In this document: positions 40,689 to 61,692 of the stretch, piece after piece
Position numbering within the stretch: position 1 is the stretch's first letter
Layout of the letters: each line of letters starts with the position of its first letter
From: Elusimicrobia bacterium GWF2_62_30
GTDB taxonomy: Bacteria; Elusimicrobiota; Elusimicrobia; Elusimicrobiales; UBA9959
DNA: 64,000 bases
NCBI GenBank assembly: GCA_001799995.1
Contig: MGUK01000044.1
Location: 1-64,000 of the forward strand
Direction of reading: 5' to 3'
Position numbers and translations under genes: made by a program
Notes under the pieces: model-generated
The model's input: only the letters and a program-made list of their open reading frames with translations
Databases searched by the model: none
Told to the model about the DNA's origin: nothing

Positions 40689-40803
40689 GCGCGTTGTACT
40701 CCGGCATTCCAGCGAAAGTTAATACAGGGATCACTCGCCCTTATGATGTAATGATAACAAATTTTAATTGGAGCAACTATCCAAAGCCGCGTACTCGTCC
40801 GCA

Positions 40804-42249: not shown

Positions 42250-43137
42250 ATGGCCAGTAAACCCCGGATCTTCCTTACAGGCGGCAACGGATTTCTAGGC
42301 AGCAACCTGCTCAGAAAGCTTATAGCGCTCGATTCCGATGTTTTTGTGCTGCTTCGGGCGAAATCAATACTGACCCGGATCGAAGACCTGCGCGGGAAGT
42401 TTACCCCGGTATACCTGGAGACCTCCGATCTTGCCGGCCTGTTCACCGGTGAAAGAATAGACTCGATAATCCATTGCGCCACCAACTACGGCCGCGAAAA
42501 TCAGGCCCCGCTGGATATCCTCGAAGCGAATCTTACGCTGCCGCTCAAGCTCCTCCAGATAGGTTCGGCTTCGGGAGTAAAATGCTTTATCAACACCGAT
42601 ACGGTGCTGGATAAACGGGTCAGCAATTACGCCCTGTCAAAAAGGCATTTCCGCGACTGGCTGCAGAGTTATTCGGACAGGATGACCTGCGTGAACGTCG
42701 CCCTGGAGCATTTCTACGGCCCGGGAGACAACCCGTCGAAATTCGTTACGTGGATCATCCAGTCGCTTATCAAAGACCTGCCGGAGATAAAGCTGACCAG
42801 GGGAGAACAAAAGCGCGACTTTATCCATATAGACGACGTAGCCGAGGCTTTCGTCTATATCCTGCGGGACTCCCTGACCCGTGAAAAAGGTTTTTTCCAC
42901 TATGAAATAGGTTCCGGGCAGCTGGTTTCCATCTCGGATTTTGTCTTGACGATAAAGGGCCTGGTCGGGAACACCTCAACTTTCCTTGACTTCGGGGCCA
43001 TCCCCTACCGCAAGAACGAGGTAATGGCTTCGACGGTGGAGCTCTCCGGCATTAAGAAACTCGGCTGGGAACCGGCGATCGGCCTCAGAGACGGCCTTGG
43101 CAGAACGATAGAGATAGAAAAGAGGAAACTTAAATGA
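42250..43137 (+). CDS. CDP-paratose-synthase-like SDR reductase, cassette A
   Basis: The 295-residue protein has IFLTGGNGFLGSNLL (NAD(P) site), HCATNYGRENQAPLDILEANL, FINTDTVLDKRVSNYALSK (YxxxK), VALEHFYGPGDNPSKFVTW and RGEQKRDFIHIDDVAEAF. The order and wording are those of RfbS/RfbJ, which reduce CDP-4-keto-3,6-dideoxyglucose to CDP-paratose or CDP-abequose. The stop overlaps the rfbE-like start by ATGA, which supports the assignment. Homologues: 58461-59354 and 53391-54296. Confidence 0.75.
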   Translation: MASKPRIFLTGGNGFLGSNLLRKLIALDSDVFVLLRAKSILTRIEDLRGKFTPVYLETSDLAGLFTGERIDSIIHCATNYGRENQAPLDILEANLTLPLKLLQIGSASGVKCFINTDTVLDKRVSNYALSKRHFRDWLQSYSDRMTCVNVALEHFYGPGDNPSKFVTWIIQSLIKDLPEIKLTRGEQKRDFIHIDDVAEAFVYILRDSLTREKGFFHYEIGSGQLVSISDFVLTIKGLVGNTSTFLDFGAIPYRKNEVMASTVELSGIKKLGWEPAIGLRDGLGRTIEIEKRKLK

Positions 43138-44153
43138 GAATACTTATTACGGGCGGCTGCGGCTTCCTTGGCAGCAACCTTGCCGACTATGCGGCCAAAG
43201 GCGGGCACAAAGTCGCGCTGTTCGACAGCCTGCGCCGGGAGGGCTCCGTACTTAATCTGCAATGGCTGAAGAGCGCCGGGGACTTCAGATTCGACCACGG
43301 GGATATCCGTTCTTCCGAAGAAGTAGAGTCCCTGGTCAGGGATTTCAAGCCCCAGGCGATCTTCCACCTGGCCGGCCAGGTAGCGATGACGACCTCCATC
43401 GCTTCCCCCCGCACCGACTTCGAGATAAACGTCGGCGGCACGATAAACCTGCTCGAGGCGGTCCGCAAACACGCCCCCGGCGCCGCGGTCTTTTACTCCT
43501 CGACGAACAAGGTTTACGGGGACCTGGAACAATACTCTTACCGCACAACAGCTTCCAGATATGTCTGCAAGGATAAGCCCCGGGGCTTCGACGAAGCCAC
43601 TCCGCTGGAATTCCATTCCCCTTACGGGTGCTCGAAGGGCGCGGCGGACCAGTATATGCTGGACTATGCCAGGATCTTCGGACTTAAGACCGTAGTGTTC
43701 CGCCATTCCTCCATGTACGGAGGCAGGCAGTTCGCCACCTATGACCAGGGCTGGATAGGCTGGTTCTGCCAGAAAGCCCTGGAGCAGAAACGCGGGGAGA
43801 AAAAAGCGTTCACTATTTCAGGCGACGGCAGGCAGGTACGCGACGTGCTGCACTCGGAAGATATGCAGCGTCTCTATTTCAGCGCGCTAAAGAGCGTCTC
43901 AAAGATAAGGGGCCAGGCTTTCAATGTCGGCGGCGGAATGGCGAATTCCCTTTCCCTGCTGGAACTGTTCTCCTTCCTGGAGAAAAAGACCGGAGTTAAA
44001 CTCAAGTACGTAAAGCTACCGGTAAGGGCGAGCGATCAGAAAGTGTTCGTCTCCGACCTGGCCAAGATCACCAGGCTGACCGGGTGGGCGCCGCGGGTGG
44101 GCAAAGATGAGGGAGTGACCAAAATGCTCGGCTGGGTGGAAAATGGAAAATAA
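43134..44153 (+). CDS. rfbE: CDP-paratose 2-epimerase (CDP-tyvelose epimerase), cassette A
   Basis: The 339-residue SDR has ILITGGCGFLGSNLADYA, FHLAGQVAMTTSI, VFYSSTNKVYGDLEQYSY, HSPYGCSKGAADQYMLDYA, VFRHSSMYGGRQFATYDQG and SGDGRQVRDVLHSEDM, a close match to the Salmonella/Yersinia tyvelose epimerase RfbE as remembered. It epimerises C2 of CDP-paratose to CDP-tyvelose. The genes for CDP-glucose formation and 3-dehydration (RfbF, RfbG, RfbH) are not in the window. Its end overlaps the next gene by 11 bases. Confidence 0.85.
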   Translation: MRILITGGCGFLGSNLADYAAKGGHKVALFDSLRREGSVLNLQWLKSAGDFRFDHGDIRSSEEVESLVRDFKPQAIFHLAGQVAMTTSIASPRTDFEINVGGTINLLEAVRKHAPGAAVFYSSTNKVYGDLEQYSYRTTASRYVCKDKPRGFDEATPLEFHSPYGCSKGAADQYMLDYARIFGLKTVVFRHSSMYGGRQFATYDQGWIGWFCQKALEQKRGEKKAFTISGDGRQVRDVLHSEDMQRLYFSALKSVSKIRGQAFNVGGGMANSLSLLELFSFLEKKTGVKLKYVKLPVRASDQKVFVSDLAKITRLTGWAPRVGKDEGVTKMLGWVENGK

Positions 44154-44844
44154 ACCAGACCTGAGCGTTATTGTACCGGCTTATAACGAGGCTGAAAACC
44201 TCCGGGACCTCCTGCCGCGCCTTACCGGAGTGCTGGGAGCGGAAGGGATCCATTTCGAAATACTGGTAGTGGACAGGATCGCGAGTACTGACGAGACCCC
44301 GGAGATCTGCGCCGCCAACAGCGCCGTATATATAAACAGGAAGGACAGCGATTCCTACGGCGACGCTGTCCGCACGGGGATCGCCTGTTGCCGGGGACGG
44401 CACGCCATCTTCATGGACGCCGACGGCTCCCATCCCCCGGAGTTCATATCGGAACTTTACAAAAGCAGGCACGACTCCGATGTGGTTATCGCCTCGCGGT
44501 ATGTGGCCGGCGGCGGCACGGAGAACGCGAAGTCCCTGATCTTAATGAGCAGGGTCCTGAACCTGATCTATTCGGTGGTCCTGAATATCCCGTGCAAGGA
44601 CATTTCAAACAGCTTTAAGCTCTACCGCAAAGACCTGCTTGCGGGGCTCAGGCTGGATTGCGACAATTTCGACATCGTCGAAGAAATACTTTACAAGATA
44701 GTTAAGTCCAACCCGCGGGTAAAGATAAAAGAAATACCGTTCACCTTTGAAAAACGCAAGTTCGGGGAAACAAAGAGGAACCTGTTCCTCTTCATCCTCT
44801 CCTTTGCGGTCACCTTGTTCAAACTGCGTTTTGGAATTAAATAG
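44143..44844 (+). CDS. DPM1-like GT2 polyprenyl-phosphate glycosyl synthase, cassette A
   Basis: A 233-residue GT2: LSVIVPAYNEAENLRDLLP, EILVVDRIASTDET, SYGDAVRTGI, FMDADGSHPPEF, SDVVIASRYV, ISNSFKLYRKDL and FEKRKFGETKRNL are typical of dolichyl-phosphate-mannose synthase-like enzymes. It has a weakly hydrophobic C-terminus but no clear pair of helices. It overlaps rfbE by 11 bases, so it probably loads the sugar (perhaps a dideoxyhexose) onto polyprenyl phosphate for the GT87 protein; this is inference. Homologue with the same overlap: 56754-57455. Confidence 0.78.
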   Translation: MENKPDLSVIVPAYNEAENLRDLLPRLTGVLGAEGIHFEILVVDRIASTDETPEICAANSAVYINRKDSDSYGDAVRTGIACCRGRHAIFMDADGSHPPEFISELYKSRHDSDVVIASRYVAGGGTENAKSLILMSRVLNLIYSVVLNIPCKDISNSFKLYRKDLLAGLRLDCDNFDIVEEILYKIVKSNPRVKIKEIPFTFEKRKFGETKRNLFLFILSFAVTLFKLRFGIK

Positions 44845-44852
44845 AGCGCCGG

Positions 44853-45983
44853 TCAGCGCGCGCGGACCGCTTTCCCGAGAACGGCGAGCGTCGCGCCGGC
44901 TGCGGCGTCCCAGGAGAAAGCCCCGGCCCGCGCGGCGGCAGCCGAAGCTGCGGCGAGACGTTCCTCTCCGGTGCGCGCAAGGACAGCGGAAACCGCGAGG
45001 GAGAGGCCGCTCTCGTCCCCGGCTTCATAATATAGCGCCGCCTCTTTAAAGATCTCGGGAAGACAGGCGCTGCGGGTTGAAACGATATTGCAGCCGTGAG
45101 TCAGCGCCTCAAGCGCTACAAAACAAAACGATTCCATGCGGCTGGTGAGGGCGAAGGCGGCGCAGTTGCTGTAGCACCAGGACAGTTCCGCCTCCGGGAG
45201 ATTGCCAAGCCAGGCAATGTCGCCGGCAACCCCCAGGCCCGCGGCCAGCTCCCTCAAGGAAACGGCGTATTTTTCCGCGCCTGTCCGGGCCCCTCCCGCT
45301 ATAACAAGTTTGAGGTCCGGGTGCGCAATTTTTAATCCCGGCAAAGCCCGGACAAGGTCTTCCAGCCCGCGGTAAGCTTCGAGAGAACCCGCGGTAAAGA
45401 TGAACTTCTCCTCCCCTCCGGAGAAGGCGGCAGGCGGACGAGCCGAGCCGGACACCGAGTTCCGCCCGTAATGTATTACGGTCAGCTTTTCAGCCGGAAC
45501 CCCGGCCTTTCCGGCCAGGAAATCCTTGACGTAGCCCGTGGGCACTATAGCCGCCGCGGCCCGTTCGAGCGCGATCCGCGTCTCGTGGCGCCTGGCTATG
45601 GCTACCGCTATTTCTTTTAACCCCGAGCCTGTCTTCACGCCGGCCAAAGGCGCCATGTTCTGCAGCATTACCACTACGGGCAGGTCGTTATAGTTTACAT
45701 ACCGCTCTATAGGGATGAACAGCAGATCGGGCTTGAACGCGTCGAGACCCGCCCTTAGGCCTTCGTCGGGCACGTGTCTGAAAGGGCGGAAAGGCTCGCA
45801 GAGGGAATAGGACACTTTCGGGATGGCGGGCAGCCAGTCCCCGGCGGACATCCCGGCGGGAGAGGCGCAAAGTATGTTCTCTATTTCGGTGCAAGCGGCC
45901 AGCCGCGGAAGCATATTCTGCAGATACTTGCGGTGACCGCCGCTTATACCGCCGCCGGTAAGGTTGATAATGGCGATTCTCAT
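44853..45983 (-). CDS. Family 4 glycosyltransferase
   Basis: The 376 residues start at MRIAIINLTGGGISGGHRKYL, a usual GT4 start; the upstream frame overlaps the ligase gene. FIFTAGSLEAYRGLEDLVRAL, IAWLGNLPEAEL and ALTSRMESFCFVALEALTHGCNIVS (E-x7-E) mark the donor domain. Ala content in the last 40 residues is very high. It is the last gene of the minus-strand transferase operon that starts near 54508. Confidence 0.8.
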   Translation of the reverse strand: MRIAIINLTGGGISGGHRKYLQNMLPRLAACTEIENILCASPAGMSAGDWLPAIPKVSYSLCEPFRPFRHVPDEGLRAGLDAFKPDLLFIPIERYVNYNDLPVVVMLQNMAPLAGVKTGSGLKEIAVAIARRHETRIALERAAAAIVPTGYVKDFLAGKAGVPAEKLTVIHYGRNSVSGSARPPAAFSGGEEKFIFTAGSLEAYRGLEDLVRALPGLKIAHPDLKLVIAGGARTGAEKYAVSLRELAAGLGVAGDIAWLGNLPEAELSWCYSNCAAFALTSRMESFCFVALEALTHGCNIVSTRSACLPEIFKEAALYYEAGDESGLSLAVSAVLARTGEERLAAASAAAARAGAFSWDAAAGATLAVLGKAVRAR

Positions 45984-46002
45984 CTTGGTGGGAAAAGCGG
46001 GC

Positions 46003-47352
46003 TCAGGGCTTGGAAGCCGTAAGGGGAGACGCGCCGGCTTTATCCGGCCTGGCAACAGCTCCCAGCCCTGCCACAGCGCCGAGCGCGATCCAGAAGATCC
46101 TTTCGTTTATATAATCGCAGGTGACCATCCACAAGCATACGGTTACCCCCCCGATAAGGAAAGGGAATACCGCGGAGGAAACCCCGGCGCGCAGGCCTGA
46201 AAAAAAGATAAAGCCCATGAAAAAGAAAAGCAGCAGGGCGGGCAGCAAACCCGCTTCGACGGTATAATACAGGTACGAATTGTGCGGGATCTGCTTCGTG
46301 TTAGGGTCGAATTTATCAGCGGCCAGGCCTTTGAAGAGGTTCGGGAAGGCTTTTTCGTACAGAGCGGGATACTGGCCGATGCCGACGCCCCAGAAAGGAT
46401 TCGACTTTATGCCGTCCAGCGCCACGCCCCAGGCCTTCAACCGTGTTAAAGACGCGGCGTCATTTACCAGGGCCAGTTTAGGGGAATCATAAACATTCCC
46501 CATGAAGGCAATTTTTTCCTGCATTTTATAAACATCAGGATGGATGGTAAACCGGCAGAATGCGACAAAGATGAACATTACAGCCAGACCCTTAAGAACA
46601 CGCCACAAAGGGACTTTGGAACGAACAAGGATACCCCCAAGAAATATAATGGCCAGGCCCAACCCAAGCCAGGCCCCCCTGTTCATCGTGTAAAAAAGGC
46701 CCGCCGCGCCGATACCCAGGGAGAATACATATAACAGTTCGACGGGAAGACGCAGCTGCTCCTTGGGTTCAATGGCGTACCGGCTCAGCACTATGCCCAG
46801 CATCCAGGCCGCCGCGCCTCCCGCCCAGATATGGGTATTGCCGAATCCCCAGCCCTGGGTCCCGATCCCGAAATTCAACTGCCCCAGGAAACCCGCAACA
46901 TAGAACGGACTGACGAAATTCACCTGCAGCAGGATAAGGATGCCGGAAACTATCAGGTAAATTTTCATCCAGTAAACCAGCCTATCAAGGCTGACAGAGT
47001 TGACCGCGACCCTGATAAAGAACAGGCAGCAGAAGGAAACGGTATAGGCCTGGACTCCCGCCCTTGAAAAATCCCCGAAGTGTATGACCCCGGCGGAAAA
47101 CCAGAATAACCCGACTACCAGCGCAAAAATAGAGATGTCGAGCGGAAGGCGGAAAACGCCGCTGCGCACTTCCTGCCATACCTGCAAAGCATAAAGCAGC
47201 AGCCCGAAAGCTAAAAAGGGAGTATGAAAACTTATCGGGGAAAGCCAGGGTTTATACGGCACAAGGAAATACAGCGCCAGGTAAACAAAAAAAACGCTGG
47301 AAATAGCCGCCTGCAGCGGGAAACGGGAAAGTTTTTGAAAAAGCTCTGACAT
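46003..47352 (-). CDS. O-antigen ligase/polymerase-like membrane protein
   Basis: The 449 residues start at MSELFQKLSRFPLQ, about 11 hydrophobic segments. MNRGAWLGLGLAIIFLG holds the Arg motif and NPFWGVGIGQYPALYE plus IPHNSYLYYTVEAGLLPALL the His motif of the WaaL/Wzy superfamily. With Wzx close by, it may be the Wzy polymerase. A TATAAT box on the minus strand at about 47383-47388 may be its own promoter. Confidence 0.8.
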   Translation of the reverse strand: MSELFQKLSRFPLQAAISSVFFVYLALYFLVPYKPWLSPISFHTPFLAFGLLLYALQVWQEVRSGVFRLPLDISIFALVVGLFWFSAGVIHFGDFSRAGVQAYTVSFCCLFFIRVAVNSVSLDRLVYWMKIYLIVSGILILLQVNFVSPFYVAGFLGQLNFGIGTQGWGFGNTHIWAGGAAAWMLGIVLSRYAIEPKEQLRLPVELLYVFSLGIGAAGLFYTMNRGAWLGLGLAIIFLGGILVRSKVPLWRVLKGLAVMFIFVAFCRFTIHPDVYKMQEKIAFMGNVYDSPKLALVNDAASLTRLKAWGVALDGIKSNPFWGVGIGQYPALYEKAFPNLFKGLAADKFDPNTKQIPHNSYLYYTVEAGLLPALLLFFFMGFIFFSGLRAGVSSAVFPFLIGGVTVCLWMVTCDYINERIFWIALGAVAGLGAVARPDKAGASPLTASKP

Positions 47353-47453
47353 TTTTACGCCCAAAACGGTGTTACCATTATATATTATTTGCCTTCCTGA
47401 GAAATCAGAAGGGCCGCACAACGGATAATATGGAAGTAATGCAAAAGGGAAGT

Positions 47454-48491: not shown

Positions 48492-49930
48492 GCTCCCTCC
48501 CGTACTGCCGCGGCCTTGCGGTAAAGAAGGTATTGCGCAAACATGAAATAAAGGCCCAGGGCCAGCAGTACCGCGAATGAAATTACTATCGACCCGCCAT
48601 TGTTCCTTACAAGCAGCCCCGCAGGGAACGGCAAAGCCAGCAGCATGGCCATTTTTATAGCCCTGAAATTTATCGCCAGCTTCAGGATGCGGCGCATTCC
48701 GGCGATCATAAAGAAAAGAGTAACAAAGCCGGAAAGAACAAGGGTAACGGGCACCCAGAATGAATAACCGGCCGATAGCGAGGCTAAATAGACTCCGCCT
48801 GCGGTAAAAACACCGCCAAAAACATAAGGCTTCGCCAGTGGCCCTGTGCGCATTTCAGAATGGGCGACGTTCGAGAAGATATTTGTGGTGATTCGCGCAA
48901 ATTCCACCCACGCCCCAAAGACGGTAAAGACCCAGACCGCATGGAATTTTGCGTCTACAAGCACCGTCACAATATGCCAGGAGAGAAAAGAAACGAACAA
49001 GGTCGTAAGCAGATATATCGGGATAATCGTCCCTGCCATTTTATCCCAGGCGGCTTTCCTGGCGCCGACATCCTGCGTGTTTATCTCCGCGTAATAAATG
49101 GGCTGATAGATCTGCTGGATAAGGGACTCCGCGGCCGCGGCAATAGCCGCCGCTATCCCCAAACCCACCGCCATCCGCCCCAGGAAATCCAGCCCGATAT
49201 TTCTTTCGAGAACAAGCCGATAGGACTGGTTTTGCATCCACATAAAGAATGTTGTCACCAGCAGCGGAAAACTGAATTTGGTTATCCCCTGTAAGCCGGG
49301 GTTTTTGATGGTTTCCCAAACCCCTGGGAAGTTTACCCCGTATTCCACTTTGTGCTGAAAATAATATAAGGACGCGGCGGCAAGGGTTATAAGGCCGAAG
49401 ATCTGGCCTGAGATCCACATCGTCGAGGTGGCGCCGGACGCTTTTACAAGTGAAACGGAAAATGCCAGTGAGAGCAGCAGGGTCGCGGTGGAAAAGAAAA
49501 CAAAACTCTTCCGGTGGTGGAGCATGTTGAGGGCCGGTATGATAGTCGAGTTCCATGTACCGGCGTAAATATAGCCGCCGGCGAGCAGGCAGAGGCTCAG
49601 GGTGCTCATCCCAGTGCCTATCCCGAAGGCCTTTTTGACCAGGTATAAGACCGGGAAAACGGACAGGGAAACGGCCAGGACATACAGATTGTAACAGGCG
49701 AAGTAGTCCAGCAGGCGTCTTTCTTTGTGCCAATCGTTCAACCGCCTCGTCATGTACAGGCCTACCGGGCTCAGGAGCACCAGGGAGAAATATGAGGTAA
49801 CGGAAAGGACCAGATAGACGTTGCCGACCTCGCTTCCCGACAGGAGATGCGTCATCAGGCGCATGGCCGCCAGAGCTACAAAGATCTGGAGCACGCGCCC
49901 GGCGCTGAGTATTATGTAATCGCGTTTCAT
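48488..49930 (-). CDS. Wzx-like polysaccharide flippase
   Basis: The 480-residue protein has about 12-14 hydrophobic segments and no soluble domain, as in MATE/PST-family flippases. It starts MKRDYIILSAGRVLQIFVALAAMRLMTHLLSGSEVGN, the usual Wzx N-terminus. It would turn undecaprenyl-linked repeat units over the inner membrane. It overlaps both flanking genes by four bases. Confidence 0.8.
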   Translation of the reverse strand: MKRDYIILSAGRVLQIFVALAAMRLMTHLLSGSEVGNVYLVLSVTSYFSLVLLSPVGLYMTRRLNDWHKERRLLDYFACYNLYVLAVSLSVFPVLYLVKKAFGIGTGMSTLSLCLLAGGYIYAGTWNSTIIPALNMLHHRKSFVFFSTATLLLSLAFSVSLVKASGATSTMWISGQIFGLITLAAASLYYFQHKVEYGVNFPGVWETIKNPGLQGITKFSFPLLVTTFFMWMQNQSYRLVLERNIGLDFLGRMAVGLGIAAAIAAAAESLIQQIYQPIYYAEINTQDVGARKAAWDKMAGTIIPIYLLTTLFVSFLSWHIVTVLVDAKFHAVWVFTVFGAWVEFARITTNIFSNVAHSEMRTGPLAKPYVFGGVFTAGGVYLASLSAGYSFWVPVTLVLSGFVTLFFMIAGMRRILKLAINFRAIKMAMLLALPFPAGLLVRNNGGSIVISFAVLLALGLYFMFAQYLLYRKAAAVREGA

Positions 49931-51324
49931 CGATGGAACATTACTTGTTTCAGCTTGCGCAGCCGGGGCACGACTTTTCTCATTGCCTGGGCGGGATTAA
50001 GCAGGAGTTCGCTGAAAATACGCTTAACCCACTGCCGCCAGGGCTGGCAGGCCAGTGTTATTCGCGTAACCATGCGCTCCAATTCCTCTTCGCTATGCTC
50101 AAGCGTAAAGAACGGGACATCTTTATCCGTCAGCCAGTAGCTGTCGTCTATACGTCCGCTGGCCCGGAGAACTTCATACACCTCGGTATTGGGATAGACC
50201 CAGAGGCGCGCCACGCCCGCGAATTCAAAATATTTTATCTTCTGCAATTTCTTTACGAGGTCTATGGTTTCAGCCACGGTTTCATCATTCTCCCCGGGAA
50301 AGCCCACCATGAGGTAGGTGGCGATACGGATACTCCTGCCTTTGAGCATTTCAAAGGTTTTGATGACCTCGTCGCGCGTTATGTTCTTATGGATGGACTT
50401 AAGCAGTTTTTCGCTGCCCGTTTCCAGGCCGAAGCCGATACCCTCGAATCCGGCCTTTTCCATTATCTCGAACAGTTCCACGCTGGCCGGCTTTATGCGG
50501 GCCGAGCAGAGAAACCTCATTTTTATGCCGCGCCGGATTATTTCGCGGCAGATCTCTATGGCCCTGGGCTGGTTAAGCGTAAAGGTGTCGTCAGCTATCT
50601 GCAGTACCTTTATCTGCGGAAAGTTCTCGGCTATATGAGCTATTTCATCCACCACGTTCTTTACCGAACGGGTGCGGAAACGGCGCCGGGAAATAGTATG
50701 AAGGCAGCAGAAGCTGCAGCGGTAAGGGCAGCCGCGGCTGGTCAGGATACAGCCCATCTCACGCAGCGGCTCAGGTTTGATGAAGAGTTCATGCTTGGGG
50801 AAAGGGATGGAATCCAGGTCCTCTATCAGCGGCCTTTGGGGTGTCAGTACAGCGGCACCAGCCTTACGGTAGGCAATTCCCTTTACCGTCCCGAGGTCTT
50901 CCCCGGAGGAAAGCACCCGCAGGAGCTCAACGATAGTGGCTTCCCCTTCTCCTATAACCACGCAGTCCAGCGGATAGTTATCAAGCAGCTGCGCCGGATA
51001 GATGGAAGCGTGCACCCCTCCGGCTATTATACGGGCCCCGGGGAGCAGTTCCCGGGCTTTCTTTATGGTTTTATAACACTCCACCCGGTTCATGGTGAAG
51101 ATCTGTACCAGCAGGAAATCAGGCCTGAACCCGGACAATTCCGCCTCTACGGCTGCCGACGCCGCCGCCAGGTCGTCGTTGTTATGGCTTAACGTACGGA
51201 TGTCGTACCCCTCCCGCTCCAGGACCGCGTGAAGGTAGGCAAGGCCAAGTCCATATGAATTGTCCTTGGAATGAGCCTGAGCGTTTACCTGTAGCGGCGG
51301 ACTTACAAGCAGGATCTTTTTCAT
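49927..51324 (-). CDS. B12-binding radical SAM protein
   Basis: A 465-residue protein. The N-terminal B12-binding-like domain (about 1-150) starts ILLVSPPLQVNAQAHSKDN and has PDFLLVQIF and IIAGGVHASIYP. The radical SAM domain has the 4Fe-4S motif SRGCPYRCSFCCLH (CxxxCxxC). Such enzymes do methylations or ring changes at unreactive carbons. In a polysaccharide operon it may alter a sugar or lipid carrier; the substrate cannot be told. A truncated homologue lies at 59344-59520. Confidence 0.82.
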   Translation of the reverse strand: MKKILLVSPPLQVNAQAHSKDNSYGLGLAYLHAVLEREGYDIRTLSHNNDDLAAASAAVEAELSGFRPDFLLVQIFTMNRVECYKTIKKARELLPGARIIAGGVHASIYPAQLLDNYPLDCVVIGEGEATIVELLRVLSSGEDLGTVKGIAYRKAGAAVLTPQRPLIEDLDSIPFPKHELFIKPEPLREMGCILTSRGCPYRCSFCCLHTISRRRFRTRSVKNVVDEIAHIAENFPQIKVLQIADDTFTLNQPRAIEICREIIRRGIKMRFLCSARIKPASVELFEIMEKAGFEGIGFGLETGSEKLLKSIHKNITRDEVIKTFEMLKGRSIRIATYLMVGFPGENDETVAETIDLVKKLQKIKYFEFAGVARLWVYPNTEVYEVLRASGRIDDSYWLTDKDVPFFTLEHSEEELERMVTRITLACQPWRQWVKRIFSELLLNPAQAMRKVVPRLRKLKQVMFHR

Positions 51325-52355: not shown

Positions 52356-52395
52356 ATCTGCGACTCATTAAACAGTTCCGGCAACACTACGGCTA

Positions 52396-53394
52396 TTATT
52401 CAAACAAGCACTTGTAATCGCCTGAAATCATTTTTTTCAATGCCCGTTTAACCCGCGGGAGATTAGGGATGAAAAGCAGCGCCGGCAAATGAATCAGCCA
52501 GAATACCGGATATTTGTAAAGATAATGCGCCATCCCTTTCGCAATTTTCACCTTGCTCGCAAGATCCGACGGCTTTAAAGTCAGGATCGCCATCAGGTTA
52601 GACGCGACGCGTTGCCTGATAAATTCGTCGAAGATTTCCGGAGAATATCCTTCTGTATTAAGGCGGGACAACGTGTCAAGGTGAGAAACCCCTGCCCATA
52701 ACTGGTTCCCGAAATTTCCCTGCCATCTCGGGTTGCGTATCCGGACAATTACCGGCGGGGACGACAACACGATCCCGGGCCTGTTCCTCATTATCCTGAT
52801 CAGGCCGGCAAGATGCACCCATTGGCTGCCGTAAGAATCGGCCAGGTCGATCCGTTCCCAATCGGCCCGTCTGACAATGACCGACGCCATCGAGGAGGTC
52901 GCCCACATGGTGCTCTGAAAAAAGGAATTCCCGTCGGGGTATACTTTGTCCGCGGCCGGACGCGCCGCATACACCATCTCTTTGCGAACCATGTTGTAAT
53001 GATCCGCCGGAGCGATACAGGCGGCCGGTTTGGGATCACTGAACGCTAAAACTTTGGCCCGGATTACGGATACTGCGTCCGGGCTCAAATAATCATCGTC
53101 CCCGATGAGCCAGACATATTCACCTTTCGCCGCCCTTATCGCCAGATCGACATTGCGGTCATAACCGGCATTTTCAGCGTTCCTGCGGTATCTTACAAGC
53201 CCCGGATATTGCGCCTGATACTTTTCGGATATCTCTCCCGTTGCGTCCCGGGAACAATTGTCCGAGATTAATATTTCGATGTCATCTATTTTTTTCGCCA
53301 GTACCTCGTTAAGAATAGAGTCTATGGCCCCTTTAAGATATTCCGCCCCATTATACGTGGGGATCGCGAACGTTAAGAGAGGAAGACTGGTCAC
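52396..53394 (-). CDS. RfbV-like family 2 glycosyltransferase (dideoxyhexosyl transferase candidate)
   Basis: A 332-residue GT2: LLTFAIPTYNGAEYLKGAIDSIL, ILISDNCSRDATGEI, AGYDRNVDLAIRAAKGEYVWLIGDDDY, then a tail with SVIVRRADWERID. The arrangement resembles abequosyltransferase RfbV of Salmonella as remembered. The start overlaps the stop of the abequose/paratose-synthase-like gene by four bases, so that its product is the likely donor. Confidence 0.72.
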   Translation of the reverse strand: MTSLPLLTFAIPTYNGAEYLKGAIDSILNEVLAKKIDDIEILISDNCSRDATGEISEKYQAQYPGLVRYRRNAENAGYDRNVDLAIRAAKGEYVWLIGDDDYLSPDAVSVIRAKVLAFSDPKPAACIAPADHYNMVRKEMVYAARPAADKVYPDGNSFFQSTMWATSSMASVIVRRADWERIDLADSYGSQWVHLAGLIRIMRNRPGIVLSSPPVIVRIRNPRWQGNFGNQLWAGVSHLDTLSRLNTEGYSPEIFDEFIRQRVASNLMAILTLKPSDLASKVKIAKGMAHYLYKYPVFWLIHLPALLFIPNLPRVKRALKKMISGDYKCLFE

Positions 53395-54296
53395 ATACCC
53401 TTCTTTGTTGCTGAAGCGGCAACAGTACGGGAAAGCCCTTCTTTAAGAGAGAAAGCGGGTTTCCATCCGAGGTTTTTCAGCTCTATCGGGTCCGCGAACG
53501 AGTTCATTATCTCGTCGTCCCTATAGGGCAGCGCGCCGAAATCCAGGAAGGTCGGGCTGCCGGAAACTTCTTTAACGGTCTCGGCGAATTCCTTTATAGA
53601 AGTGCTGACGCCGGTACCTACCTCGAAGGTCTTAAACCTGAAACTGTTTTTTTCCGCGAAATCGACGACGGTCCTGTAAGCGCTGACGACGTCGGACACA
53701 TAAACGAAATCCCGCTTTTGATGTCCGTAGGTAAGGGCCAGCCGCTCCTGCGGATTAACGGCTATGGCGTCTATCAGCATCGGCACGAATTTAGCGCGTG
53801 AATCCCCCTCGCCGTACAGATGTTCCAGCACGAGATTGCAGACCTTGATACTCTTGGAAAAGTGGTGCAGCCATTTTAAAAAGACTTTTTTAGAAAGCGA
53901 GTAATTGATCAGGTGAAAATATGAAAGATTTTCCTTGTTGAAATAGGAATCGGTATTAATGAAGGTTTTTAATCCGTGTTTAATCCCTTCCTCGATCAAT
54001 TGCACAGGGAAGACCAGGTTTGTATCTATCGCCTTTATGCAGGAAGGGTCGCCGCGCCCGTATTCCGTAGCTGCGTGTATGATCGTATCGATCTGTTCCG
54101 CGGCGAATATTTCAGGCAGGGCAGTGCGGTCGATATCGTACATTTTAAGAGAGGGATCCGAAACCAGATGGGTTATTCTCTCTAAACTGGAGAAGCTCCT
54201 TTTCAGCGCAGTGACTTTTATTCCCTCGCCGGAAAGGAGCATCTCAAGAATATGGCTCCCCAGGAAACCGGTAGCCCCGGTCAACAGAACATTCAT
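53391..54296 (-). CDS. CDP-abequose/paratose-synthase-like SDR reductase (third copy)
   Basis: A 301-residue homologue of the cassette enzymes, more diverged: VLLTGATGFLGSHILEMLL, HAATEYGRGDPSCIKAIDTNL, INYSLSKKVFLKWL (YxxxK), LVLEHLYGEGDSRAKFVPM and GHQKRDFVYVSDVVSAY. It has no rfbE-like partner beside it, so it would supply paratose or abequose directly to the RfbV-like enzyme. The start overlaps the CgeB fragment by four bases. Confidence 0.72.
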   Translation of the reverse strand: MNVLLTGATGFLGSHILEMLLSGEGIKVTALKRSFSSLERITHLVSDPSLKMYDIDRTALPEIFAAEQIDTIIHAATEYGRGDPSCIKAIDTNLVFPVQLIEEGIKHGLKTFINTDSYFNKENLSYFHLINYSLSKKVFLKWLHHFSKSIKVCNLVLEHLYGEGDSRAKFVPMLIDAIAVNPQERLALTYGHQKRDFVYVSDVVSAYRTVVDFAEKNSFRFKTFEVGTGVSTSIKEFAETVKEVSGSPTFLDFGALPYRDDEIMNSFADPIELKNLGWKPAFSLKEGLSRTVAASATKKGM

Positions 54297-54508
54297 TTCC
54301 CCCCCCAGATAGCCGACAGGATCTCTTTTAACCGGGCCTCATAGGTGTGCTCTTTTTCAGCCCGGCCCTTACCGGCCAGCAGCACGGCAAGGCGCTCCGG
54401 CTCGTTATCGAGGTAATACCTGATCTGCTGCGCGCATTCCTCCGGCGAGGAAAAGACCGCCACTTCTTCCCCGATCTTCAGATAATGTTCCAGGCCGGCG
54501 TTGTGCAT
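54293..54508 (-). pseudogene. C-terminal fragment of a CgeB-like glycosyltransferase
   Basis: The 71-codon frame reads GLEHYLKIGEEVAVFSSPEE and so on to the C-terminus, equal to the last 68 or so residues of the full gene at 59679-60695. Over bases 54321-54499 versus 59707-59885 only three differences were counted, so the copy is recent. Identity stops at 54499, where MHNA replaces the upstream part. It has an ATG, a promoter box (54529-54539) and ATGA coupling to the next gene, so it may persist as a leader for the operon. Confidence 0.85.
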
Positions 54509-54528
54509 AATATTTTTTTCGTATTTAC

Positions 54529-54539
54529 ATTATATTATA
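54529..54539 (-). promoter_or_regulatory. Overlapping TATAAT boxes at the fragment/operon start
   Basis: Two overlapping TATAAT boxes on the minus strand lie 21-31 bases upstream of the CgeB-fragment ATG (54506-54508). GCGGGC/GCCCGC (54545-54562) forms a hairpin just upstream. This could drive the minus-strand operon towards 46003. Confidence 0.45.
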
Positions 54540-54627
54540 TGCGGCGGGCGCATAAGCCCGCTGCCAGGGCACGCATGGACTAACACGCCCAAACTGGCTC
54601 GCCGGACCTTGACGGTCAGCGGAGCGG

Positions 54628-56709
54628 CTATAGGACAAAAAGCAGAAGAGCCGCCAATAAAGCCACGTATGGCGCCATAATCGCCAGAATGAGAGAAACC
54701 GGCTGAAACTTGAACTGAACAGTGTAACTTCCTTCCGCGGGAAGCAGAGTTCCCATAAATATATGGTTAACGCTCAGCAGCTGCGCCTTCTTGCCGTCGA
54801 CAAACACCTCCCACCCTGGAACGAAATTATTATTAAAGGATACCAGAACTGGGCCATTGGTTTGTACCCGTACGACTGCTTTGTTAGGCCACAATTCTGT
54901 GTGCAGTATCTTGGCACTAATCTTCACTGCGGGACCAGCTTTCGAAACGGGAATATTTATCGTCGGAATATCCGGACGGGCCAGTATATCGGAGACAACA
55001 GCATCGACATAGCGGTTATCGTTCTCATACCCGGCTCTTAGTATCCTGGCCTCTTCCCGGATATCCTGGGCTACGGTAAAGAGATGGGCAACGACCTGGG
55101 TGTCCTTAAGATGCCAGTAAATAGGGTTGCCTAAAGGATCGTATCCGTGGGAATAAGGAGACTTCCGCACATACCAGTCTGTATCCGTGTAATCATAATC
55201 TTTACTAATTCCGAGCCTTCTCTCATTTAGGTCCATGAGGACCGGGGATACAATTCTTCCTGCAAGAGCGGCCCTGTACGTCTTTTCACAATGTTGCGGT
55301 TTGCATATACTGCCTCCAGGTAAACAGTAGACAAGCAACAGCCAGTCAAAAATCGCCAAGGCGGCGACAGCGACAAGCTGATGCCTGCGGGAACTTATAA
55401 AACCGTCCACACCAAGAACAAAGTACAGTCCAGAAAGAACCACGAACTCATACCACGGCGCGTGCTGGTAAAGCAGGAACAGGACCAGAAAAGCAAGAAA
55501 TGTCCGCAGGCACCATTTTCCCCGGCCTACGGCGTTCAGAACGCCGTTGCCGACAGCATCTCCCAACCAGGTAACCGTAAGGATCACCAGCGCGATAATA
55601 CTGTAATCCACCCCAAGGACCCACCACCGGTTAGAACTAAAAAGCGGCACGCGCCTTATTAATGCGCTCAGATGATGGCCCGTCGCGCTTGAATAGATAA
55701 GACCCGCGGCAACGATGGCGCCCCAGAAATAATACTCAGGTCGGAGTTTCGGCTTCCTGCAGATCGCGTTAATGAGAAGAAGACAAGTTGCCCACCCGGC
55801 TCCGAGGGTCCAGCCGGCTCCGGCGCCGGGTCGGAAACTCGCCCAGTTGATCAGGCCCAGGATTGCCTGGAATGGGTCGTTATAAGTATATGCCCAGCCG
55901 CCACCGCCTAAGGCGCGGAGGCGCGGCTCCGGGTTAGCGTAGTCCCCTGAAAAACCGGAATAGTTAAAGCCAAGATTAGCTAGGCCTGGATAAATAAGGA
56001 TCAGGTGTACGGCCAGCAACGGGAGCAGGAACAAAACAAGCCTGAGACCGACTTCTTCTAATCTGGCCCTCTCCGCGCAGTACCGGTAAGTAAACAAAAC
56101 ATAAGCGACAAAGATCCCGGTATTTACCAGATTCATCCATTGGTAACCGGAGGCATAAACAAAGCCGAGAAGGATACCGAATAAAGGCCAGTTCGACAGT
56201 TTCCGTTCGCCCTTCACTATTGCATGGGCGGCGGCCAGCAGCCAGGGGAGCGCGGCAAACGAAAAAATGAACCACACCTGACCAATATTGACAACCATCG
56301 TCGTAAGGGTATAAATGAACGCGCCTAAACAAGCGATATCTTGCTCGGACTCTGCGGCCCGGAAATATACATAGGCCCCTACGCCGCCCATAAGAACTAC
56401 GAACTGAAGCATCCACTCATAAGCCAGCATGGGAGGGACAAGCAGCGCCAGGACTGCGAAGGGAAACTGGAAAAGCGCAAAATGCCCTATCTGGAAAAGC
56501 GAAGGGAAAAAAGTGCCGGACTGAATGAAAGGATTCCACAGAGGGAGCATCCCGTTCGCCAGACAATCGCGGAAATATACGAAGTTGTCGAAACTTAAAT
56601 CATGGGTATCCCAACCGGTGAAGCCCAGGCCTATCAGACGCTGCGCTCCGAATATAATGATGATGGGGATAAGGAAATAGAACAAAGACATTGGACGCTT
56701 CTGGTCCAT
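54628..56709 (-). CDS. YfhO-family membrane protein
   Basis: A 693-residue protein with about 12 hydrophobic segments and a C-terminal periplasmic beta domain of about 120 residues. GWDTHDLSFDNFVYFRDCL and GMLPLWNPFIQSGTFF are the YfhO signature. The C-terminal NGPVLVSFNNNFVPGWEVFVDGKKAQ and LLPAEGSYTVQFKFQP are typical as well. YfhO proteins belong to the GT-C-like fold and are linked to glycosylation of wall polymers. GC content appears a little lower than in its neighbours. Confidence 0.85.
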   Translation of the reverse strand: MDQKRPMSLFYFLIPIIIIFGAQRLIGLGFTGWDTHDLSFDNFVYFRDCLANGMLPLWNPFIQSGTFFPSLFQIGHFALFQFPFAVLALLVPPMLAYEWMLQFVVLMGGVGAYVYFRAAESEQDIACLGAFIYTLTTMVVNIGQVWFIFSFAALPWLLAAAHAIVKGERKLSNWPLFGILLGFVYASGYQWMNLVNTGIFVAYVLFTYRYCAERARLEEVGLRLVLFLLPLLAVHLILIYPGLANLGFNYSGFSGDYANPEPRLRALGGGGWAYTYNDPFQAILGLINWASFRPGAGAGWTLGAGWATCLLLINAICRKPKLRPEYYFWGAIVAAGLIYSSATGHHLSALIRRVPLFSSNRWWVLGVDYSIIALVILTVTWLGDAVGNGVLNAVGRGKWCLRTFLAFLVLFLLYQHAPWYEFVVLSGLYFVLGVDGFISSRRHQLVAVAALAIFDWLLLVYCLPGGSICKPQHCEKTYRAALAGRIVSPVLMDLNERRLGISKDYDYTDTDWYVRKSPYSHGYDPLGNPIYWHLKDTQVVAHLFTVAQDIREEARILRAGYENDNRYVDAVVSDILARPDIPTINIPVSKAGPAVKISAKILHTELWPNKAVVRVQTNGPVLVSFNNNFVPGWEVFVDGKKAQLLSVNHIFMGTLLPAEGSYTVQFKFQPVSLILAIMAPYVALLAALLLFVL

Positions 56710-56753
56710 AAAATTCTCCTAAACCCAGGCATTCCGCTGCCGGCTACGCTTCC

Positions 56754-57455
56754 TTAACTCCTGCCGAAACGCAGTCGTATGAGCGTAGTTAAAAACGAAA
56801 GCATGAAAACAATAAGGTTCCGCTTCGTCTCCCCGTGCTTGCGCTTTTCGAACCTGAACGGCAGTTCTTTTATACGCAGCCCCGGGACCTTCTTCACCAG
56901 CTTGTAAAATATTTCTTCTACGATATCGAAGTTCTCCGTGGTCAGTGCAAGCCCCTTGAGCAGTTCCCCCCTGTAAAGTTTGAAGCTGTTGGAGATATCG
57001 TTGCAGGGTATCCCGAGCACCAGTGAGTAAATAATATTAAGCGTACGGCTCATCAGCACAAGGGCCAGACTGTTATCTGTCCGCCCCCCGTCCACGTACC
57101 TGGAGGCCACCACCACGTCCGCGCTCTCCCTGGCTTGCCACAGTTCGGCCAGGAAGGCCGGGGCGTGAGACCCGTCTGCGTCCATGAAGACGACATACGT
57201 GCCGGCGGCCTCTGAAATCCCGGTCCGCACCGCGTCGCCGTAGGCGTCGCTGCCGCGCCGGTTCACGCACCTGACGCCCAGGCCGCGGCACAGTGCCGCG
57301 GTTTCGTCCAGCGGCTGGAAGGAGTCCACCACCAGTATCTCGAACGCGCCTGTAAGTTCAGCCGCCACCCGCTTGATTTCCGGGAGCAGCAGGGCCAGGT
57401 TGTCCCGCTCTCTGTAGGCGGGCAGCACAATGCTTAGTTCTGTTTTACCGGGCAT
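56754..57455 (-). CDS. DPM1-like GT2 polyprenyl-phosphate glycosyl synthase, cassette B
   Basis: The 233-residue homologue of 44143-44844: LSIVLPAYRERDNLALLLP, EILVVDSFQPLDET, AYGDAVRTGI, FMDADGSHAPAF, SADVVVASRYV, ISNSFKLYRGELL, FEKRKHGETKRNL. Roughly half of residues are identical by eye. Again it overlaps the rfbE-like gene by 11 bases. Confidence 0.78.
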   Translation of the reverse strand: MPGKTELSIVLPAYRERDNLALLLPEIKRVAAELTGAFEILVVDSFQPLDETAALCRGLGVRCVNRRGSDAYGDAVRTGISEAAGTYVVFMDADGSHAPAFLAELWQARESADVVVASRYVDGGRTDNSLALVLMSRTLNIIYSLVLGIPCNDISNSFKLYRGELLKGLALTTENFDIVEEIFYKLVKKVPGLRIKELPFRFEKRKHGETKRNLIVFMLSFLTTLIRLRFGRS

Positions 57456-58464
57456 TTTTCACCCAGTTTAGCATCTTGATGATGCCGGATCTTTTGTCCA
57501 CGCGCGGGGACCATTTAAACATGGAACGCGCGGCGGTTATATCCGCCACGAAAACCTTCTGGTCGCTCTGCCTGAAAGGCAGCCTTTTGTATTTCAGTTT
57601 AACGCCCATGATATCTTCCAGCTCGGCGAACAGCTCCAGCAGGGAAAGGCTGTTGTTCATGCCGCCGCCGATATTGAACGGCCGCCCCTTCGCCCTGCCG
57701 ATGCAGCCGGGGACCTTGTAATACAGTTCAGCCGCGTCGTCGGCGTGGAGCACGTCCCGCACCTGCTTGCCCGTGCCTGAAATGGTGAAGACTTTGCCTT
57801 TACCGGCGGCGGCTTCCACCGCCTGCCGGCAGAACCAGCCTATCCAACCCTGGTCGTAGGTGGAGAACTGGCGGCCGCCGAAGATGGAGGAGTGGCGAAA
57901 AACAACGGTCTTCAGGCCGAACATCTTCGCGTAGTCCAGCACGTACTGGTCCGCCGCGCCCTTGGAACAGCCATAAGGAGTTGTGAAGTGCAGAGGCGTC
58001 GCTTCATCGAACCCTTTCGGTTTCCCCTTACAGACGAAACGGGTCGGGGTAGCGGCGTATTTGTGATCCTCCAGATCGCCATAGACCTTGTTGGTGGACG
58101 AATACACCACCACGGTAGCCGGCGAGAAGCGGCGCACCGCCTCCAGGAGGTTCTGCGTCCCCACGGCGTTCACCTCGAAATCCATCCGCGGGTCCTGCAG
58201 CGAAGTGGTCATCGCCACCTGTCCGGCCAAATGATAGATAACGTCCGGCCTGATCGTTTTAACGGCCGCGTCCAGCCGGGACCTGTCCCGGATGTCTGCT
58301 TTCAGAAAGCCGAACTTCCCGAGGGACTTCAGCCACGCCAGGTTCTTTTCCGCGCCGTGCCGGTACAGGTTATCGTATACCCACAGCTTGTCCTTCAAAG
58401 CGAGCGCCTTGCAAGCGATATTGCTTCCCAGGAACCCGCAGCCGCCGGTGATAAGTATTTTCAT
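57445..58464 (-). CDS. rfbE: CDP-paratose 2-epimerase-like SDR, cassette B
   Basis: The 339-residue protein, same length as the cassette A enzyme: ILITGGCGFLGSNIACKA, YHLAGQVAMTTSLQDPRMDF, VVYSSTNKVYGDLEDHKY, TTPYGCSKGAADQYVLDYA, VFRHSSIFGGRQFSTYDQG, SGTGKQVRDVLHADDA. It probably makes CDP-tyvelose. The conserved lengths and overlaps show that cassettes A and B share ancestry. Confidence 0.83.
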   Translation of the reverse strand: MKILITGGCGFLGSNIACKALALKDKLWVYDNLYRHGAEKNLAWLKSLGKFGFLKADIRDRSRLDAAVKTIRPDVIYHLAGQVAMTTSLQDPRMDFEVNAVGTQNLLEAVRRFSPATVVVYSSTNKVYGDLEDHKYAATPTRFVCKGKPKGFDEATPLHFTTPYGCSKGAADQYVLDYAKMFGLKTVVFRHSSIFGGRQFSTYDQGWIGWFCRQAVEAAAGKGKVFTISGTGKQVRDVLHADDAAELYYKVPGCIGRAKGRPFNIGGGMNNSLSLLELFAELEDIMGVKLKYKRLPFRQSDQKVFVADITAARSMFKWSPRVDKRSGIIKMLNWVKNAR

Positions 58465-59354
58465 TTGAGAATTCTTTCCTTTTCGGATAGTATCGCGCCC
58501 CTGAGCCCCCGCGCCAGCGGCATTTTAGGCCGCCAGCCCGCGGCCCGGATAAGGGACAGGTCCACGTTCGATTCCATCACCTCGTTCTCCCTGTAGGGAA
58601 AGGCTCCGAAATCCAGCTTCGTCACAGTGTTCCCGGTCAGTTCCTTGAGCAGGCACATGAAGTCCCTGATCGAGATCGTGCTGCCGGTGCCGATCTCGAA
58701 ATTATAGAAGCCGGCCTTCTTCCTTTTGAGCCATTCCACCACCGTTGAGAAAGCGTTAACCACGTCCGAAATATGGATGAAGTCGCGCTTCTGCTCTCCG
58801 GGCGTAAGCCCTATACTGGGGACGCCGCGCAGCAGCGACTGTATCATGAGCGTAACGAACTTGGAATTGTCGTCACCGGGGCCGTAGAAATGCTCCAGCG
58901 CCACATTGCCGCACACCACCCTGTCGGAATACAGGTTAAGCCATTCCCTGAACTGTGACTTGGAAAGTGAATAATGGCTGACGCGTTTGTCCAATATCGT
59001 ATCGGAATTTATGAAGCAATTCAACCCGTGTTCCGCGCCTATCTGCAGCAGGCGCAGGGGCAGCAGCAGGTTGGCCTGCAGCACCGAGACGGGGGGCTCC
59101 ATTTTCCTGCCGTAATTAGTGGCGCAGTGAAGTATCACGTCGATCTTCTCAGCCTTGAAGAACCTTTCCAACGAGATCTCATCTATGGAGAAAAGCTTTA
59201 ACTTCGGCACCAGGTCCTTTATCCGCGAGTAGTTGGAGGCGGAGCGCACGAGCAGGCACACGTCGCGCTTCTCGGCAAGGAATTTGCGCAGCAGGTTGCT
59301 GCCGAGAAAACCGGTAGCACCTGTCATCAGTATCTTGAAAGGCTTAGCTGCCAT
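58461..59354 (-). CDS. CDP-paratose-synthase-like SDR reductase, cassette B
   Basis: The 297-residue homologue of 42250-43137: ILMTGATGFLGSNLLRKFL, HCATNYGRKMEPPVSVLQANL, FINSDTILDKRVSHYSLSK, VALEHFYGPGDDNSKFVTL, GEQKRDFIHISDVVNAF. It overlaps rfbE by four bases and the radical SAM remnant by 11 bases. Confidence 0.75.
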   Translation of the reverse strand: MAAKPFKILMTGATGFLGSNLLRKFLAEKRDVCLLVRSASNYSRIKDLVPKLKLFSIDEISLERFFKAEKIDVILHCATNYGRKMEPPVSVLQANLLLPLRLLQIGAEHGLNCFINSDTILDKRVSHYSLSKSQFREWLNLYSDRVVCGNVALEHFYGPGDDNSKFVTLMIQSLLRGVPSIGLTPGEQKRDFIHISDVVNAFSTVVEWLKRKKAGFYNFEIGTGSTISIRDFMCLLKELTGNTVTKLDFGAFPYRENEVMESNVDLSLIRAAGWRPKMPLARGLRGAILSEKERILK

Positions 59355-59678: not shown

Positions 59679-61630
<1,952 letters not shown>

Positions 61631-61692
61631 TCAGTGTGTATCCTTATTTTACTCCGGCTTCACGCCATGACGGCAGGCGGACCGCGTCCTTG

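Follow-up and report, generated by a model that had tools for sequence, protein, structure and literature searches.

A DPM1-like glycosyltransferase paired with CDP-tyvelose 2-epimerase suggests a polyprenyl-phosphate route for dideoxyhexoses in Elusimicrobiota and other bacteria

In Salmonella group D1, ddh (rfbFGH-type) genes are followed by those for the Prt reductase and the RfbE/Tyv epimerase; the reported order is prt-tyv-wzx-wbaV, with WbaV attaching the sugar ahead of the Wzx step (PMC3715488). A second group of described systems, three-component extracytoplasmic glycosylation, includes GtrABC and the pentofuranose systems of Citrobacter, which start from phosphoribosyl pyrophosphate (PRPP; PMC11127046). 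Here, we analyze two mirrored gene cassettes from Elusimicrobia bacterium GWF2_62_30 (genome 2.9 Mb, 84% complete), located in a 64,000-bp stretch, hereafter the window, with which the 88,482-bp contig MGUK01000044.1 begins (positions 1-64000). Like the Salmonella cluster, they combine a Prt-like reductase with RfbE, and their genome holds rfbFGH-type genes; whereas Salmonella has wzx-wbaV after tyv, rfbE in the window overlaps the gene for a DPM1-like family 2 glycosyltransferase (GT2), with GT-C-type genes near. The Salmonella-type tyv-wzx order is thus absent from both window copies, in which GT2 follows rfbE. We consider it probable that this GT2 loads the sugar of a CDP-3,6-dideoxyhexose onto polyprenyl phosphate and that a GT-C transferase then transfers it outside the cytoplasm.

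Cassette A lies on the plus strand. It comprises a short-chain dehydrogenase/reductase (SDR) that is a Prt/RfbS-like candidate CDP-paratose synthase (SDR_A, 42250..43137; Pfam Epimerase E 1.4e-31, YxxxK at residue 127), the 339-amino-acid (aa) epimerase RfbE_A (43134..44153; PDB 1orr E 9.1e-151, 9rl0 E 2.3e-147) and the 233-aa GT2_A, a candidate polyprenyl-phosphate dideoxyhexose synthase (44143..44844; Pfam Glycos_transf_2). Upstream, on the same strand, stands a GT87-family glycosyltransferase, GT87_A, a candidate extracytoplasmic transferase (40873..42180, with an open frame that begins at 40768; Pfam GT87 50.0 bits, E 4.4e-13, cutoff 25). Cassette B is read from the minus strand and holds SDR_B, again a Prt/RfbS-like candidate CDP-paratose synthase (58461..59354), the 339-aa RfbE_B (57445..58464; 591 bits with the RfbE profile) and the 233-aa GT2_B of the same clade as copy A (56754..57455); directly after GT2_B, a multi-transmembrane YfhO-like protein of 693 aa (54628..56709, minus strand) is a candidate GT-C partner of this copy. 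The open reading frame (ORF) calls place both cassettes where the sequence-only reading had put them and agree with the overlaps (4 bp between SDR and RfbE, 11 bp between RfbE and GT2, in both) and the equal epimerase and GT2 lengths it had listed. What it had judged by eye as about half identical came to 60% for RfbE, 58% for GT2 and 55% for SDR upon alignment, with 58% over 375 aligned positions for GT87. This likeness exceeds chance, and each gene pair is homologous over all or nearly all of its length. Little weight falls on the 4-bp overlap, because GT2-free loci have it too (L085, L026, L028, L074 and L033), whereas the 11-bp overlap is common to A, B and the nearest GT2 relatives (G045 and L059) and therefore most likely reflects common descent.

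By homology, RfbE is a CDP-tyvelose 2-epimerase. A grouping with UDP- or GDP-sugar epimerases, which the sequence-only reading had raised against itself, was not what the comparison gave: RfbE_A, the copy used here, scores 505 bits with 1orr and 494 bits with 9rl0, both solved CDP-tyvelose 2-epimerases, and the next match, a UDP-glucose 4-epimerase, reaches 125.5 bits. Both copies keep V83 A84 M85, T124 N125 K126, Y164, K168 and Q205 of the Thermodesulfatator atlanticus enzyme TaTyvE (9rl0), residues reported as catalytic or substrate-contacting, with T124/Y164/K168 as the triad (PMC13098431). The likeness therefore lies in the named catalytic and substrate-contact residues; the difference is that the window enzymes stand in operons with GT2 and have a predicted substrate. 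TaTyvE is reported to interconvert CDP-glucose and CDP-mannose (PMC7851689, PMC13098431), and homology to it therefore does not prove the substrate in the window, where conversion of CDP-paratose to CDP-tyvelose is predicted. CDP-paratose is known to be hard to obtain, and attempts to synthesise it are reported to have failed (PMC7851689).

The contig also carries the precursor genes rfbF, rfbG and rfbH, shortly after the window ends, at about 71.4-74.6 kb. Their absence from the genome had been named in advance as refuting the dideoxyhexose assignment, and all three were found above curated cutoffs: glucose-1-phosphate cytidylyltransferase at 430.8 bits (cutoff 300), CDP-glucose 4,6-dehydratase at 512.4 (278) and RfbH at 684.6 (423). 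An FNR-like (RfbI-like) protein of 228 aa adjoins them (L009:8771-9457) and matches NAD_binding_1 and, weakly, FAD_binding_8 (E 0.001). The E3 reductase RfbI carries a ferredoxin-type domain; in this short RfbI-like reductase, a Pfam scan gave no ferredoxin-domain match. Additionally, a metallo-beta-lactamase (MBL)-fold gene adjoins rfbF on the window's contig (L009:12726-13469) and sits between rfbG and rfbH in the related genome G045 (L166:6472-7218).

To place the cassettes in a wider frame, genome contigs were scanned with both window RfbE proteins, and the best 80 of at least 556 confirmed RfbE loci were compared, a locus being counted as GT2-positive if it held a homologue of the window GT2 at 186 bits or more. 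In 53 of the 80, the gene for an SDR homologue precedes rfbE and ends no more than 300 bp away from it; it is because of this position that the window SDRs are called paratose synthases, as no curated model gives SDR_A or SDR_B a name. A GT2 homologue is present in 20 of the 80 loci, and in 19 of these it overlaps rfbE or sits within 5 bp of it, the exception being L096, where the distance is 2 kb. The hosts belong to Spirochaetota, Bacillota, Fibrobacterota, Omnitrophota, Lentisphaerota, Acidobacteriota, Bacteroidota, Pseudomonadota, Bdellovibrionota, Chloroflexota and several Patescibacteria lineages, and 19 of the 20 records are titled as metagenome-assembled genomes or uncultured, the remaining one being that of Lachnospiraceae NC2004, a cultured isolate. 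The RfbE-GT2 pair, often with a GT-C gene, occurs across about a dozen phyla. In the GT2-negative loci, a multi-transmembrane ORF stands directly 3' of rfbE in 27 of 60; among 26 such proteins (L057, a twin of L056, was left out), MatE was matched by 21 and Polysacc_synt by 16, which is the arrangement reported for Salmonella D1 (PMC3715488). Fisher tests on the locus counts take no account of how the genomes are related, are thus descriptive and carry no weight here. L056 and L057 themselves have identical RfbE rows and near-identical neighbours and come from bins assigned to Sericytochromatia and Leptospiraceae, a case of recent transfer or mis-binning.

The membrane proteins of the two classes of loci differ. 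The census covered proteins with at least seven hydrophobic segments, scanned against Pfam: 22 from 15 of the 20 GT2-positive loci and 70 from 45 of the 60 GT2-negative ones. GT87 accounts for 10 and PMT_2 for 2 of the 22, among which Wzx or Wzy families (Polysacc_synt, MatE, Wzy_C) number 0; among the 70, GT87 and PMT_2 each number 0, with Polysacc_synt at 26, MatE at 21, Polysacc_synt_3 at 9 and Wzy_C at 8. A 2514-aa ORF of L077, the fused GT2 of L091 and five mutually overlapping minus-strand ORFs of L099 were left out before counting; the last match the GT87 profile, and their omission therefore lowers the GT2-positive count. The window GT87s, which score six hydrophobic segments, fall below the census cut-off. 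Across all ORFs of the 80 loci, the GT87 profile gave 15 matches, all in nine GT2-positive loci, 8 of them being training rows. Among 17 ORFs of 280-1000 aa with four to six segments in GT2-negative loci, no GT87 or PMT_2 was seen in 25 of the 27 matching families. As a separate observation, six overlapping minus-strand ORFs beside the RfbE-GT2 pair of L099 (L099:5799-13620) match the GT87 profile at 94-140 bits and look like a tandem array.

The GT2 itself resembles enzymes that load sugars onto lipid phosphates. A profile of 22 GT2s found the dolichyl-phosphate mannose synthase DPMS as its best match (5mlz, E 2.4e-37, full length), followed by ArnC and GtrB. In a tree, the GT2s form a single clade of 29 rows (20 from survey loci, 7 from other Elusimicrobiota and the 2 window copies) against 44 other GT2s, with support of 100/99; clade membership had been fixed by profile score before the tree was built, and L167 was left out. 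The acceptor-phosphate, A-loop and base-reading residues described for DPMS (PMC5526996) and GtrB (PMC4728340) were mapped onto these rows through the profile alignment. The clade shares with both enzymes the GT-A domain, the DxD motif, the acceptor-phosphate Arg/Ser residues and a predicted C-terminal helix, which spans residues 214-230 in a confident AlphaFold model of GT2_A (pLDDT 91.8, pTM 0.88). Specifically, R119 and R205 (R122 and R200 of GtrB) and S136 (Ser135 of DPMS) are kept in 29 of 29 clade GT2s and the A-loop lysine K211 in 28; the 44 outgroup GT2s keep R119 in 40, R205 in 42, S136 in 24 and K211 in 40, and therefore only S136 is notably more constant within the clade. The difference from DPMS and GtrB lies at the aspartate that reads guanine in the former (Asp39) and uracil in the latter (Asp43): it is absent from all 29 clade members and replaced by Thr in 19, Ala in 3, Arg, Ser and Pro in 2 each and Cys in 1. 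Beside it, an extra residue at position 46 is present in 29 of 29 clade rows, where all 44 outgroup rows have a gap. The replacement may fit another base, such as cytosine.

Predicted membrane segments vary within the clade. Crude hydropathy gives two hydrophobic segments for GT2_A, one for GT2_B and none in 14 of the 29 rows, and a Pfam scan of the window GT2s gave no match to a GtrA/DPMS-type membrane domain. The GT2 of L091 (Kaiserbacteria) is fused to GtrA_DPMS_TM (E 1.1e-21), and that of L175:1592-4351 (G186), a 919-aa protein, to a C-terminal half with ten transmembrane segments and no Pfam match; the latter fusion possibly joins a synthase and a transferase or flippase in one protein. 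The GT2 is a candidate synthase of a polyprenyl-phosphate sugar.

The association of GT2 and RfbE can also be followed through genome sets. In a set of 294 genomes from the window's phylum, GT2 reaches at least 289 bits in 9 (next match 199.5) and RfbE at least 530 bits in 18 (next match 439). RfbE is present in 7 of the 9 GT2 genomes, and 11 of the 18 RfbE genomes have no GT2; the two GT2 genomes without an RfbE match have a completeness of 70% and 63%, and one of the two, G176, has GT2 beside rfbF and rfbG. The two genes are adjacent in the window and in G045 and separated by one gene in G023 and G050. In G045, which belongs to the same family as the window genome, the whole set forms one run, rfbF-rfbG-MBL-rfbH-rfbI-SDR-rfbE-GT2-GT87-PMT_2. 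Among 332 genomes of the phylum of L091, GT2 and RfbE have the same two hosts, G733 and the chosen centre, and are adjacent in each; in 398 Bacillota genomes, searched for GT2 only, it was found in the chosen centre alone, which is uninformative as replication. At the cut-offs used, neither gene appeared in any of the 20 same-genus genomes listed, and the locus is therefore patchy. Gene content and order, homology, residue conservation and co-occurrence are direct observations throughout.

These data are best explained by a model in which RfbF, RfbG and RfbH would form CDP-4-keto-3,6-dideoxyglucose, which the SDR would reduce to CDP-paratose and RfbE would epimerise at C2 to CDP-tyvelose. The GT2 would then move the sugar, tyvelose or paratose, from CDP onto polyprenyl phosphate at the cytoplasmic face, and the polyprenyl-phosphate sugar would be flipped across the membrane, where a GT-C transferase would add it to an O-antigen or another surface glycan, the local candidates being GT87_A and the 693-aa YfhO-like protein. 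Substrates, acceptor, membrane side and partner GT-C are predicted from homology and gene neighbourhood. The three-component systems supply the model for this scheme (PMC11127046): the likeness lies in a lipid-phosphate sugar synthase with a GT-C gene in many loci, and auxiliary epimerases are reported to diversify the donor there; the difference is that the proposed donor here is a CDP-3,6-dideoxyhexose, whereas the pentofuranose systems are described as using PRPP and no nucleotide sugar. The sequence-only reading had suggested such a periplasmic, polyprenyl-phosphate route, and comparison across the 80 loci favours it, with chemistry and membrane side remaining inferred. We also lean toward a broader reading, in which these GT2s, as a clade of polyprenyl-phosphate glycosyltransferases that had not been described before, would use CDP-3,6-dideoxyhexoses and, together with RfbE and GT-C enzymes, would constitute a widespread extracytoplasmic tyvelose/paratose pathway in many phyla, Lachnospiraceae and Patescibacteria included, its CDP preference arising from the aspartate replacement and the longer loop. 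In a literature search that left most subscription journals outside its coverage, none of the matches listed described a polyprenyl-phosphate dideoxyhexose route, as judged by title and the start of the abstract. If the model is true, immunodominant dideoxyhexoses reach the surface by two routes, one cytoplasmic, as in Salmonella, and the other extracytoplasmic and based on a lipid carrier; such glycans could then be predicted from sequence alone by a signature in which rfbE overlaps the gene for a GT2 of this clade and a GT-C gene accompanies them, and three-component systems would extend to CDP-sugars.

Several observations weigh against this model. On the side of supply and linkage, rfbF, rfbG and rfbH are not in the fetched stretch of 10 of the 20 GT2-positive loci (several of these contigs are short). 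GT2 is on another contig than RfbE in G206 and G179, and in G223 a distance of 23 kb separates the two. The base-reading aspartate is also missing in 26 of the 44 outgroup GT2s, which rules out its loss as a unique mark of the clade. On the membrane side, 5 of the 20 GT2-positive loci hold no ORF of seven or more segments, and the membrane proteins adjoining GT2 in L041, L063, L073, L087 and L104 gave no GT87 or PMT_2 match. Possible GT-C proteins, furthermore, occur in GT2-negative loci, namely YfhO (3 of the 70 census proteins) and DUF2079 (1 of the 17 ORFs with four to six segments), both of which we take to be GT-C-like. In the window, the 693-aa protein with its nine hydrophobic segments matches Pfam YfhO at 21.1 bits, under the cutoff of 28.5, its structure model is unusable (pLDDT 43), and no PDB relative was found for it. 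In G028, a genome outside the RfbE and GT2 matches, there is a GT87 that shares 62.5% identity with GT87_A, and GT87_A may therefore serve another sugar. A search of the 84%-complete assembly for GtrA, the sole flippase family searched, gave one match, on another contig. A Wzy_C protein and a Wzx-like gene are encoded in the window as well (the latter 61% identical to a protein of G028 that matches Polysacc_synt_3 below the cutoff), and cytoplasmic assembly therefore occurs there too.

The last two points, together with the missing GtrA/DPMS-type membrane domain of the window GT2s, are what would be expected if the GT2 were an ordinary cytoplasmic tyvelosyltransferase, an analogue of WbaV acting on the repeat unit linked to lipid diphosphate before the Wzx flip. 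We regard this as unlikely, although it survives best among the alternatives: the closest solved relatives of the GT2 are polyprenyl-phosphate sugar synthases, with a full-length match to DPMS, the acceptor-phosphate residues are kept in 28-29 of 29 clade members, one member carries the GtrA_DPMS_TM fusion, and the membrane proteins of GT2-positive loci are GT87 or PMT_2 in 12 of 22 cases and Wzx families in none.

Ranking second, and likewise improbable in our view, is a lipid route for a different sugar, in which the substrate of RfbE would be CDP-glucose/CDP-mannose or some other CDP-sugar, or in which the GT2 would use GDP- or UDP-sugars and stand beside rfbE for other reasons. The activity of TaTyvE on CDP-glucose and CDP-mannose, the GDP-sugar genes on the same contig and the ten GT2-positive loci in which rfbF/G/H were not seen would fit such a sugar; the genome, on the other hand, has rfbF/G/H and an SDR in the Prt position, the same genes form one run in G045, and no clade member has the guanine- or uracil-reading aspartate.

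That a single set gave rise to both mirrored cassettes by local inverted duplication is very improbable: equal lengths, the same overlaps and a uniform 55-60% identity over four gene pairs speak for it, but GT2_A groups with G045 (72% identity) and L059 to the exclusion of GT2_B (100/96), a tree that forces GT2_A and GT2_B together is rejected (p-AU 0.014), and cassette B is absent between syntenic flanks in G028. The idea of the two cassettes as sister copies thus fails on the GT2 tree, in which G045 and L059, and not GT2_B, are the nearest relatives of GT2_A. For RfbE_A, the nearest protein by identity comes from a GT2-free Desulfuromonadaceae locus (70%), with G045 at only 64%; the nearest relatives of RfbE_A and GT2_A therefore differ, and a cassette may combine genes of separate histories. 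The RfbE tree, from which L168 (the same locus as L074) was left out, is too poorly resolved to place copy A or B. Mapped onto it, the GT2 label requires 12 changes against a shuffled mean of 22.3, and the GT2 association is therefore clustered, yet without a single origin on RfbE.

The comparison with G028 also bears on the surroundings of cassette B. A 20-kb stretch at a contig end of G028 holds the cassette-B flanks at 55-84% identity, with genes for GT87, Fcl-like, ColD-like, CgeB-like, radical SAM, GT10, Wzx-like, GT2 and GT4 proteins. SDR_B, RfbE_B, GT2_B, the 693-aa protein, a thiamine diphosphate (ThDP) enzyme and Wzy had no match in the searched 20 kb, and the 294-genome search gave no RfbE or GT2 match for G028; cassette B was therefore either inserted in the window genome or lost in G028. 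The GT87 of G028, 55-62% identical to both window GT87s, is located in a ColD/Fcl-like module. The sequence-only statement that a GT87 homologue accompanies each cassette holds as far as positions go, with genes at 40873 (+) and 62918 (-), but its copy-B half loses ground: because the G028 gene sits in that module, membership of GT87_B (62918..64000 and on to contig position 64207, minus strand; Pfam GT87 55.0 bits) in cassette B is not supported, and it more likely belongs to the flanking ColD/Fcl-like GDP-sugar module. As a partner of cassette B it was set aside on this synteny; the YfhO-like gene follows GT2_B instead.

This is a second, GDP-linked deoxysugar module, occupying 60692-62871 of the window and 62918-70603 of the contig, with ManC, two GMD-like, two Fcl-like and a ColD-like protein. 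The ColD/RfbH-like pyridoxal phosphate enzyme (61693..62871, minus strand; Pfam DegT_DnrJ_EryC1) is 84% identical to a G028 protein and scores 213 bits with the RfbH model, under its cutoff of 423; the name ColD is our assumption. The module also includes an acetolactate-synthase-like ThDP enzyme, labelled YerE-like by analogy and not by comparison with the YerE sequence; Yersinia YerE is reported to branch 3,6-dideoxy-4-ketosugars (PMC12247030). Homologues of the ThDP enzyme occur in the fetched stretch of 7 of the 20 GT2-positive loci (L049, L051, L059, L087, L091, L094 and L104) against 4 of the 60 GT2-negative ones, which may mean that branched dideoxysugars share the lipid route.

Further genes of the window complete the picture. 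A third SDR of the same family, 38% identical to SDR_A, lies at 53391..54296 on the minus strand, and a radical SAM protein with a B12-binding domain (49927-51324), 67% identical in G028, is found inside the O-antigen cluster. At the cluster edge, two Bac_transf sugar transferases stand head to head, at 33426-34805 on the minus and 34929-36356 on the plus strand, which suggests two glycans or two clusters.

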